A DNA stretch of 64,000 nucleotides from Thermaerobacter sp. FW80 (GTDB taxonomy: Bacteria; Bacillota; Sulfobacillia; Thermaerobacterales; Thermaerobacteraceae): the NCBI RefSeq assembly GCF_004634385.1, contig NZ_CP037895.1, positions 2,207,245 through 2,271,244 of the forward strand, read 5' to 3'. The translations under genes and the position numbers were made by a program. This document shows, piece by piece, positions 1-8,692 of the stretch. How positions within the stretch are numbered: the first letter of the stretch is position 1; each line of letters starts with the position of its first letter. A model generated the notes under the pieces. That model saw only the letters and a list, made by a program, of their open reading frames with translations, had not been told where the DNA came from and did not search any database.

Positions 1-1376
1 CCCGACGGGTGGGGGCCCTGGGCCGCGGGGATGCGGAGCGGGGCCGGCGTGGCCACGCAGCGGCAGGTGGGCGCGGCGGCCAGCGCGGGCAGGGCCTCGA
101 GGATCAGCCGCCGCAGGTTGGCGCCGTTGGCCGCCATGACCTCCAGCACCTCCTCATGGGTCAGCGGCTGGCCCGCCATGCCCGCGGCGTAGTTGGTGAC
201 CATGGCCACCGTGGCGTAGCACAGCCCGGCCTCCCGCGCCAGCACCACCTCGGGCACGCTGGTCATGCCCACCACGTCGCCCCCCAGGCGCTCGAACATG
301 CGGATCTCGGCGGGCGTCTCGAAGCGGGGGCCCTCGGTGCACACGTACACGCCGCCGTTGGTGACCGCCAGGCCCAGGGCGGCACCCGCCTCGGCGAGAC
401 GGGCCCGGATCTCCGGGCAGTAGGGCTCGGTGACGTCGACGTGGACGACCCCCTGCTCGCCCCCCTCGAAGAACGTGGCGACCCGGTTCTTCGTGAAGTC
501 CAGGAACTGGTCCACCAACACGAAGTGCCCGGGGGCCAGCGCCCGGCGCAGGGAGCCCACGGCCGCCGTGGCCACGACCCGTCGTACCCCCAGGGCGGCC
601 AGGGCGTAGATGTTGGCGCGGTAGTTGATCCGGTGGGGTGGCACCGTGTGCCCGGCGCCGTGCCGGGCCAGGAACACCACCTCCAGGCCGCGGAACGTCC
701 CGATTCGGACCGTCGCGCGGCCGTAGGGCGTCACCACCGTCTCCTCCCGCACGTCCTCGAGGATCGCGGGGTCGTAGACCCCCGTCCCGCCGATGATGGC
801 CAAGCGCACGGACCGGTTCCTCCCTTCGCCACCGTCGCCGGTCGGAGCCGAGGCTCCGGTGGTGCTGCCCGCCGCCTCTCCGCCGGCGCCCACCGCCGGG
901 CCGGTCGCCGCCGGCGGCCCCCCACCCTCCCGGCGCATGGCCTCGACCAGGCGCTCCAGCGAGCGCAGCAGCCCCTGCCGATCCGCCGGCTCCAGGTGGG
1001 CCAGGACCCGCGCCAGGTAGGCGCGGCGCGCCTCCAGTACCGCGTCCATCAGCTCGCGGGCGCGGGGCAGCAGGCGCAGCCGGATCACCCGCCGGTCGTC
1101 GGGGTCGCGCACCCGCTGGACCAGTTGCTGCCGCTCCAGGCGGTCCACCAGATCGGTGACCGTGCTGGAGGCCAGATAGAGGTGCTGGCAGAGCTCCCCC
1201 ATGGTCAGGTCCGGGTGGCGCATCAGGACCAGGAGGGCGTCGAACTGGGGCGGGGTGATGTCGAAGCGCTCCAAGATGGCGCGGCCGTGATGCCGGACCA
1301 GCGTGGCCACCGCCCGCAGGTGCTGCTCGGCGGCCGCGACCAGTCCGTCGCCGCATCCCTCGTCCCTTCGGGTCAT
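1..1376 (-). CDS. MarR-type regulator fused to a purine/methylthioadenosine nucleoside phosphorylase (C-terminus cut by window edge)
   Basis: One uninterrupted frame runs from ATG 1376 (GGAGG 6 nt upstream) to the window edge. Residues 1 to about 145 form a MarR winged helix, with helix SSTVTDLVDRLERQ and wing DPDDRR. A Gly/Ala/Ser-rich linker (about 146-189) follows. From residue 190 comes a nucleoside phosphorylase of the MTAP/PNP family: GGTGVYDP, RHGAGHTVPPHR (phosphate/substrate loop), TEGPRFET and TSVPEVVLAREAG. There is no stop codon between the two parts. An internal GTG at 809, preceded by AGGGAGG, could also start the enzyme alone. The family phosphorolyses methylthioadenosine or purine nucleosides. 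The substrate-pocket motif reads TNYAAG, with Asn where human MTAP has Asp, so a 6-oxopurine substrate is plausible (inference). Family recognition is sure; whether a fusion protein is made is not. Confidence 0.85.
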   Translation of the reverse strand, partial: MTRRDEGCGDGLVAAAEQHLRAVATLVRHHGRAILERFDITPPQFDALLVLMRHPDLTMGELCQHLYLASSTVTDLVDRLERQQLVQRVRDPDDRRVIRLRLLPRARELMDAVLEARRAYLARVLAHLEPADRQGLLRSLERLVEAMRREGGGPPAATGPAVGAGGEAAGSTTGASAPTGDGGEGRNRSVRLAIIGGTGVYDPAILEDVREETVVTPYGRATVRIGTFRGLEVVFLARHGAGHTVPPHRINYRANIYALAALGVRRVVATAAVGSLRRALAPGHFVLVDQFLDFTKNRVATFFEGGEQGVVHVDVTEPYCPEIRARLAEAGAALGLAVTNGGVYVCTEGPRFETPAEIRMFERLGGDVVGMTSVPEVVLAREAGLCYATVAMVTNYAAGMAGQPLTHEEVLEVMAANGANLRRLILEALPALAAAPTCRCVATPAPLRIPAAQGPHPS

Positions 1377-1547
1377 GGGTGGCCTCCGTGCCGCCGGACC
1401 GGGGCGGTTGGGGCGGGGCGTGCGCCGCGCTGCGCGAGGGCGCCACCGGTCCCACCGCCGCGGGTGCGGACCTGGCGGCCGCGCCGGCGGCGGCGCCGCC
1501 CGTGGCCCAGCCCCCGTCCGGTCTCGCCTGCCCTGCGGTCGGGGATC

Positions 1548-2096: not shown

Positions 2097-2126
2097 AAAA
2101 AAAGAAGTGCGGTCGAACCGCACTTC
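2097..2126 (-). terminator. Rho-independent terminator downstream of speD
   Basis: On the minus strand a 10-bp stem (GAAGTGCGGT paired with ACCGCACTTC) with a 3-nt loop is followed directly by seven T residues. It lies about 30 nt after the speD stop and before ndk, so speD is probably a single-gene transcript. Confidence 0.9.
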
Positions 2127-2158
2127 CGCCGCCCCGGCCGGGGTCCGCCCGTCACCAG

Positions 2159-2684: not shown

Positions 2685-2712
2685 ATTGTAGCAACCTGCC
2701 CCGCCGTGTCAA
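2685..2712 (-). promoter_or_regulatory. Sigma-A promoter of speD
   Basis: On the minus strand a perfect -35 box TTGACA (2712-2707) and a near-consensus -10 box TACAAT (2690-2685) are separated by 16 bp. The -35 box overlaps the TGA stop codon of the upstream membrane-protein gene. Transcription would start near 2678, giving a leader of about 115 nt before the speD ATG. Confidence 0.9.
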
Positions 2713-6956: not shown

Positions 6957-6997
6957 AGTCGATGAGATCGCGTTTCGATGAAAAAGAGGTGTTGCCC

Positions 6998-8692
6998 GTG
7001 GTCGAGGTCTACATCCCGACGCCGTACCGCTCCATCACCGGCGAGGCCCGCCTGCGGCTCGAGGCGGCCACCGTGAAGGAGCTCTTGGAGACCCTGGCGC
7101 AGCGGTATCCCGACCTGCGCCCGCGCCTGTTCGAGGGCGATCAGATCGCCCATCACCTCAACGTGTACGTCAACAAGCGCGAGATCCGCACCTTGCAGGG
7201 GGCGGAGACGCCGCTGGCCGACGGCGACGAGGTGGCGCTGATCCCCGCCATGGCCGGCGGCTCCGATGGCGGGTCCCCGGCGCCGCTGCTCACCGAGCAG
7301 CAGATGGAGCGCTACTCGCGCCACGTGCGCCTGCCCGAGGTCGGCGTCGAGGGCCAGCGCAAGCTGCTGGACAGCAAGGTCGCCATCGTCGGCGCCGGCG
7401 CCCTGGGCTCGCCGGCGGCCATCTACCTGGCGGCCGCGGGGGTCGGCACCATCGGCATCATCGACGGCGACCGGGTGGACGTCTCCAACCTCCATCGCCA
7501 GATCCTCTACTTCGACCACGACCAGGGTCGGCCCAAGACCCAGGCGGCGCGTCGCCACCTGGAGGACATCAACCCCGACGTCCGGGTGATCGAGCACCGC
7601 ACGTTCCTCAACGCGGAGAACGCCCTGGAGATCCTCAAGGACTACGACGTGGTGATCAACGGCAGCGACAACTTCGCCACGCGCTACCTGGTCAACGACG
7701 CCTGCGTGCTGCTGGGCAAGCCGCTGGTCGACGCCAGCATCCTGCGCTTCGAGGCGCAGGCCACGGTCTTCCTGCCCGGGCGCGGCTGCTACCGGTGCCT
7801 GTTCCCGTCGCCGCCGCCGCCGGGGATGGTGCCGAGCTGCGCGGAGGCCGGGGTGCTCGGGGCGTTGGCCGGTCACATGGGCACCCTGCAGGCGCTGGAG
7901 GCGATCAAGATCCTCCTCGGCATCGGCGAGACGCTGGCGGAGAAGCTGCTGATCTACGACGCCCTCAGCGCTAGCTACCAGATCCTGCACTGGCAGCGCA
8001 ACCCCAACTGCCCGGTCTGCGGCGACAACCCGACCATCACGCACCTGATCGACTACGAGGCCTTCTGCGGGGTGCCGCTGCCGGGCAGCGCCCAGAGCCG
8101 CGCCAACGGCCGGGTGACGCCGGCGGGCCGCCCCGCCGCGGGCACCGAGGCCCGCGACGGCGTGGCGACAGGCCGGCCGGCTGCGGCGCCGGGGACGCCG
8201 GCGCCGGCCGGGGCGGCGCCCGCGACGGAAGCCAACGCCGGGGTATCGGGGCGTGCCGGACGGGACGAACGCGGCGCCGCGGCGGATCGGTCCGGGTCCG
8301 GGCCCGGGGGTGGGGCGGCCGCGCCCGCCGCGCCCGCTGCGGCGGAGGCGCTCCCCGACGCCGGGCAGGGGCCGGCGGAGCTCGAGCCCGTCGAGGCGCG
8401 CCGTCTCATCGAGGGGGGCCAGGTCCAGATCATCGACGTGCGCGACCCGTGGGAGTACGAGCGCGACCACATCCCGGGCGCGCGCCTGGTGCCGCTGGCC
8501 CAGCTGGGTGCGCGGCTCGAGGAGATCGATCCCGAGCGGCCGCTGCTGATGGTGTGCGAGGTGGGCGAGCGCAGCCGCCTGGCGGCCGAGTTCCTCCACG
8601 AAGCGGGCTTCCCGGCCGTCTACAACCTCAAGGGCGGGATGATCGCCTGGCGCAACTACCGGCTGCCCGTCGAGGCGGGGTCCGGGCGGTGA
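6998..8692 (+). CDS. MoaD/ThiS-like domain fused to an E1-like (MoeB/ThiF) adenylyltransferase and a rhodanese domain
   Basis: Predicted 564 residues in three parts. Residues 1-88 are a beta-grasp ubiquitin-like MoaD/ThiS domain ending PAMAGG, the usual diglycine tail, but here internal. Residues about 95-360 are an E1-like enzyme. It has nucleotide loop GAGALGSP, NLHRQ, ADP-binding GSDNFATR, two zinc CxxC pairs (CYRC, CPVC) and Cys in PSCAEAG. An Ala/Gly/Pro-rich linker of about 90 residues leads to a C-terminal rhodanese with active-site loop CEVGERS (Cys about 520). Such enzymes adenylate a carrier and load sulfur for molybdopterin, thiamin, cysteine or thio-tRNA synthesis. GTG 6998 is preferred over ATG 6962 because AAGAGGTG precedes it. 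The downstream JAMM gene overlaps its stop. The target pathway is unknown. Confidence 0.93.
   Translation: MVEVYIPTPYRSITGEARLRLEAATVKELLETLAQRYPDLRPRLFEGDQIAHHLNVYVNKREIRTLQGAETPLADGDEVALIPAMAGGSDGGSPAPLLTEQQMERYSRHVRLPEVGVEGQRKLLDSKVAIVGAGALGSPAAIYLAAAGVGTIGIIDGDRVDVSNLHRQILYFDHDQGRPKTQAARRHLEDINPDVRVIEHRTFLNAENALEILKDYDVVINGSDNFATRYLVNDACVLLGKPLVDASILRFEAQATVFLPGRGCYRCLFPSPPPPGMVPSCAEAGVLGALAGHMGTLQALEAIKILLGIGETLAEKLLIYDALSASYQILHWQRNPNCPVCGDNPTITHLIDYEAFCGVPLPGSAQSRANGRVTPAGRPAAGTEARDGVATGRPAAAPGTPAPAGAAPATEANAGVSGRAGRDERGAAADRSGSGPGGGAAAPAAPAAAEALPDAGQGPAELEPVEARRLIEGGQVQIIDVRDPWEYERDHIPGARLVPLAQLGARLEEIDPERPLLMVCEVGERSRLAAEFLHEAGFPAVYNLKGGMIAWRNYRLPVEAGSGR

Follow-up and report, generated by a model that had tools for sequence, protein, structure and literature searches.

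In Thermaerobacter, a heat-loving bacterium, a DNA-binding regulator and a salvage enzyme are encoded by adjacent genes that have fused into a single open frame. The fusion is a real, lineage-specific oddity, and its conserved frame and conserved internal start indicate that one gene probably yields two nested products, of about 49 and 29 kDa. Two products had been proposed in the preliminary description as the alternative to a fused protein, and both are probably true together. Taken as a whole, the best explanation, which we regard as likely, is that a coupled operon was turned into one gene with two nested products. The fused open reading frame (marR::phosphorylase) lies on the minus strand at 1..1376 of the window, i.e., the whole stretch of 64,000 nucleotides that was analyzed (C1:2207245-2271244, in a host genome of 3.04 Mb and three contigs). 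As described previously, it is stop-free from ATG 1376 to the window edge; a TGA closes it just beyond base 1, and the encoded protein has 463 amino acids. A GGAGG ribosome-binding site for this long product was read from the sequence at 1383..1387 (minus strand).

The frame comprises three parts, all on the minus strand. The MarR (YsmB-like) domain, residues 1-151 (924..1376), is recognized by PF12802/PF01047 and as a relative of PDB 2rdp (E 1.5e-30), which is the nearest solved structure; the PF12802 match covers residues ~39-97 (E 2.9e-18, 66.2 bits against a Pfam cut-off of 27). The domain is predicted to be complete, and its membership of the MarR family is indicated by a winged helix scoring above the Pfam cut-off together with dimer helices at both termini. 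The linker, residues 152-189 (38 residues; 810..923), is rich in Gly, Ala, and Pro, is predicted to be disordered, and is conserved in neither sequence nor length. The nucleoside phosphorylase domain (1..809) is of the Asn type (motif VTNYAAG) and is likely a methylthioinosine/methylthioadenosine phosphorylase: PF01048 of the phosphorylase superfamily matches residues 191-429 (E 4.3e-51, Pfam), and full-length matches were obtained with TIGR01694, the methylthioadenosine (MTA) phosphorylase model of NCBIfam (321.5 bits, cut-off 274.85), and PRK09136, the methylthioinosine (MTI) phosphorylase model (275.3 bits, cut-off 223). In the predicted structure of the whole protein (mean pLDDT 76.7), a MarR fold at residues 6-151, with helices at 8-37, 104-125, and 130-151, is followed by disorder at 152-186 (pLDDT below 50) and by the phosphorylase fold from residue 190. 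The domain matches and the structural model confirm the earlier observation that no stop separates a complete MarR domain from the start of a phosphorylase, and the phosphorylase domain itself is complete.

The same fused frame is found in four other assemblies (75-87% identity), two of which are single contigs, and it is therefore not a sequencing error. The linker is GC-rich and of low complexity, as would suit an assembly or sequencing error (a deleted stop or a frameshift), but this explanation is refuted by the relatives, since assemblies from different species, five in all, share the fused frame, and it retains a negligible probability.

Whether close relatives keep the fused frame had been raised in the preliminary description, and all five genomes of the family do, namely, four of Thermaerobacter (including the type strain of T. 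marianensis) and one of another genus. Outside the family but in the same class, the gene order is ndk-marR-phosphorylase-ahcY, and the pair consists of two genes with a stop between them. The comparison of marR stops covered the other class members with neighbouring marR and enzyme genes whose DNA was read. In two genomes of the same order as Thermaerobacter (G005 and G006), marR and the enzyme gene are distinct and a stop lies between them, a stop ends marR where the enzyme adjoins in G010, G014, G016, G035, G039, G082, and G083, and the same holds for the adjoining pairs of G093-G095, G097, G098, L043, L044, L051, and L063; this stop often overlaps the enzyme start or lies a few bases away. 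In the sample of the phylum (398 genomes), no one-frame match to both domains was found outside the family among the matches listed, and only five genomes carry the fusion. Candidates for further fusions, suggested by long open frames, were rejected: in G082, marR is closed by a TGA and the enzyme is read in a different frame; in G144, the stretch read around marR contains no phosphorylase; and in G006, for which a frame of 457 residues is listed, a TAG separates the genes. Separate genes in relatives had been put forward as evidence against the fusion; they occur in families outside the Thermaerobacter family and in none of the five genomes inside it, so that they date the fusion rather than refute it. 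The sequence comparison suggests, as the simplest history, that the genes of a closely coupled operon fused once, in the stem lineage of this family.

A start codon and a ribosome-binding site are conserved within the frame. The internal ribosome-binding site AAGGGAGGA (818..826, minus strand), noted previously together with GTG 809, is identical in four species and is the strongest of 453 in-frame positions, with a pairing energy of -15.5 kcal/mol compared with -9.5 kcal/mol at the marR start, the standard sequence of the 16S tail being assumed for these energies. The internal start codon, GTG at 807..809 (minus strand), would give a short product of about 274 amino acids, and the corresponding codons of the five genomes are GTG, GTG, GTG, TTG, and ATG. 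In four species, GAAGGGAGGA is identical amid the drifting linker and the start codon (GTG, GTG, GTG, or TTG) lies nine bases past its GGAGG; in the second genus, GGAGGAGG and ATG stand at this place. When all in-frame positions are ranked by anti-SD pairing, the site comes first in four genomes (453-502 positions each) and fourth in the remaining one (448 positions). A mere relic of a site would have drifted away like the remaining linker, and separate production of the enzyme from the internal start is very probable.

Selection differs sharply between the domains and the linker. Between family members, dN/dS is about 0.08-0.28 for MarR, 0.08-0.16 for the enzyme, and 0.4 to above 1 for the linker, whose alignment is uncertain for distant members. 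Between the two closest members, differences affect 8 of 59 residues of the linker, 3 of 135 of MarR, and 2 of 251 of the enzyme. The substitution patterns indicate purifying selection on both domains but none on the linker, which shows no amino-acid constraint and drifts almost freely. Purifying selection implies that MarR is translated, and as no stop follows MarR, its ribosomes must continue into the enzyme.

The openness of the linker was dropped as evidence for the fusion: the linker of this genome (83% GC) is stop-free in all six frames, and Markov copies of four distinct linkers were all stop-free in 28% of trials, so that an open linker by itself is weak evidence. The linkers of the five genomes measure 43, 63, 63, 91, and 44 residues between fixed anchors, which corresponds to at least three length changes, every one in frame. 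As a control, 39 co-directional neighbouring pairs that were read in all four Thermaerobacter genomes were examined, the gene calls being rough; three pairs hold phase because they overlap in all four genomes, and among the remaining 36 comparable spacers, three kept phase in all four. The untranslated ndk-marR spacer also keeps phase within Thermaerobacter and loses it in the second genus. This spacer (window 1377-1547; L006, L007, L035, and L038) ranges from 171 to 39 bases among Thermaerobacter species, with differences that are multiples of three. Because of this spacer, frame keeping was no longer taken as strong evidence, but after the 39-pair control it was retained as real though modest evidence, and the chance obtained by combining it with the stop test, roughly estimated as a product, is about 1%. 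Between 6 and 12 linker codons per genome are one substitution from a stop.

The fused gene belongs to the unit ndk-marR::phosphorylase-ahcY. The upstream gene, ndk (nucleoside diphosphate kinase, PF00334; 1548..2006, minus strand), adjoins marR in relatives, and the likely start of ahcY overlaps the phosphorylase stop (GTGA). The unit is set apart from speD by an intrinsic terminator between speD and ndk (2103..2127, minus strand) and by a promoter-like site before speD (2685-2712, minus strand), a near-perfect extended sigma-70 sequence (TTGACA-16-TACAAT with TG) that is rare in this GC-rich sequence. A simple search for a palindromic operator upstream of marR conserved in the family found none. 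Downstream of ahcY lies an amidohydrolase that resembles MTA/SAH deaminases (C1:2204504-2205538); the models matching it, including TRZ/ATZ hydrolases, 5'-deoxyadenosine deaminase, MTA/SAH deaminase, and others, all score below their cut-offs, and it is a probable MTA/SAH deaminase. Elsewhere in the window (6962-8689, plus strand), a single open reading frame combines ThiS, ThiF/MoeB, and rhodanese, with a Pro/Ala/Gly-rich linker of ~110 residues before the rhodanese; its ThiS GG is internal (..MAGGSDGG..), so that obtaining a free carrier would require either cleavage or a product made separately.

Regarding the substrate, the base-binding loop reads TDYD in the solved MTA phosphorylases (1wta/9vs8), and the second paralogue carried by class relatives shares this motif. 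The loop of the fused enzyme is TNYAAG, and most marR-linked relatives have TN(Y/F/L)(A/G)AG or similar, as in purine nucleoside phosphorylases; the fused enzyme thus lacks the Asp pair in the adenine-binding loop that marks an MTA phosphorylase proper. Besides the marR-linked Asn-type enzyme, many class members have a second phosphorylase paralogue (L148-L154, L156, and L157). These second paralogues are mostly of the Asp type, and those scanned are PRK07823-like, with their best score to another MTAP model. Thermaerobacter shows only the marR-linked Asn-type phosphorylase, and no second enzyme of the phosphorylase family was found in this genome. The Asn-type pocket, the single enzyme of the family, and the probable deaminase in the gene cluster make methylthioinosine a likelier substrate than methylthioadenosine, the metabolite named earlier, which is now doubtful. 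They suggest a route in which MTA is converted to MTI, and MTI to hypoxanthine and methylthioribose-1-phosphate; an MTA to MTI route has been reported for P. aeruginosa (PMC6302742).

The preferred explanation can be stated as a sequence of proposed steps. In the stem lineage of the Thermaerobacter family, marR of an ancestral operon ndk-marR-phosphorylase-ahcY would have lost its stop codon while in frame with the gene that follows, and the resulting fusion would since have been retained as a gene with two nested products. From ATG 1376, translation would give the 463-residue protein, consisting of a MarR dimer module, a disordered tether, and the phosphorylase, and from GTG 809 the enzyme by itself, of roughly 274 residues; both proteins presumably accumulate. 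MTA phosphorylases are trimeric and MarR proteins dimeric, so that a protein made only in the long form would build cross-linked assemblies. Mixing in short subunits would avoid such assemblies, and enzyme oligomers that combine both forms may allow a MarR dimer to occupy DNA without a MarR domain on every enzyme subunit. The enzyme would split methylthioinosine supplied by the deaminase two genes on, and the MarR part may regulate its own operon.

The strongest of the other explanations, to which we give a substantial but somewhat less than even chance, holds that two products are made and that the tether serves no purpose: once the stop was lost, translation in this genome of 75% GC simply continued into the next gene, and the read-through could be tolerated, as the enzyme is still provided from the internal start. 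The linker dN/dS near 1, the openness of the linker in all frames, and the only modest excess of frame keeping over the control fit such a neutral fusion. Its persistence in two genera, despite the linker codons that lie one substitution from a stop, and the survival of the frame through at least three length changes argue against it. A regulatory role of the tether is assumed by a different proposal, made already in the preliminary description, in which the protein is a metabolite-gated regulator (a trigger enzyme): substrate or product bound by the phosphorylase would alter how MarR binds DNA and would thereby control the salvage operon. This is compatible with the preferred explanation, and regulator and enzyme do share one polypeptide in all five genomes, the operon represents one pathway with AdoHcy hydrolase and deaminase downstream, and marR and the enzyme gene were neighbours before the fusion. 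However, a long, disordered, and drifting linker speaks against rigid allostery, the upstream region has no conserved palindrome, and the strong independent start would leave many enzyme subunits without a regulator; metabolite gating is considered unlikely. The fuller version, i.e., a lineage-specific trigger enzyme in which a MarR repressor is tied covalently to a methylthioinosine phosphorylase, the two starts set the dose of regulator subunits, and the flux of SAM by-product salvage feeds transcription, appears slightly less likely still. It is improbable to a similar degree that the long product is rarely made or is cut in the linker, so that the proteins that accumulate are just the short enzyme and a fragment of MarR. 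The disorder of the linker and the far stronger signal at the internal start than at the marR start (-15.5 versus -9.5 kcal/mol) would allow it, whereas no cleavage site is known or conserved and an extra step is needed.

Our explanation of one gene with two nested products has wider implications. YsmB-type MarR regulators are widespread, and the neighbourhood of ndk, methylthionucleoside phosphorylase, and AdoHcy hydrolase recurs in one Firmicutes class. This neighbourhood, together with the fusion in one family, links a YsmB-type regulator to the salvage of SAM by-products and makes the link testable. A literature search for a MarR-phosphorylase fusion or ysmB returned nothing relevant, and no publication giving a ligand or target of a YsmB-type MarR regulator was found. 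Furthermore, the gene documents the passage from a coupled operon to a fusion in which the old start is retained, and it is a caution for annotators, as choosing either start alone misleads.

Among known systems, the MarR part resembles the YsmB regulator (PDB 2rdp), with about 41-60% identity to relatives across the domain and the same invariant motifs, although its C-terminus in Thermaerobacter runs into an enzyme instead of ending at a stop and its gene neighbours differ; the Bacillus relatives lie in the ysmB-racE-gerM neighbourhood. PutA and NadR are trigger enzymes or enzyme-regulator fusions, and here too catalytic and DNA-binding domains occur in one polypeptide at the level of the reading frame; in the Thermaerobacter fusion, any coupling between the two activities is hypothetical, and a short enzyme probably comes from the same gene. 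The enzyme part is comparable with the MTI/MTA phosphorylase of Pseudomonas aeruginosa (PRK09136, TIGR01694; PDB 3ozb), as both models score above cut-off over the whole catalytic domain, the base-binding loop carries an Asn (VTNYAAG), and the probable MTA/SAH deaminase in the cluster agrees with the MTI route reported for that species (PMC6302742), whereas the Thermaerobacter frame adds an N-terminal MarR domain and a linker. Finally, spaO is a bacterial gene with an in-frame internal start that gives long and short forms (PMC13059759); in both genes, a second start within the frame gives, or in Thermaerobacter would give, the C-terminal part as a protein of its own, but the second start of Thermaerobacter would have been retained from a formerly separate gene.
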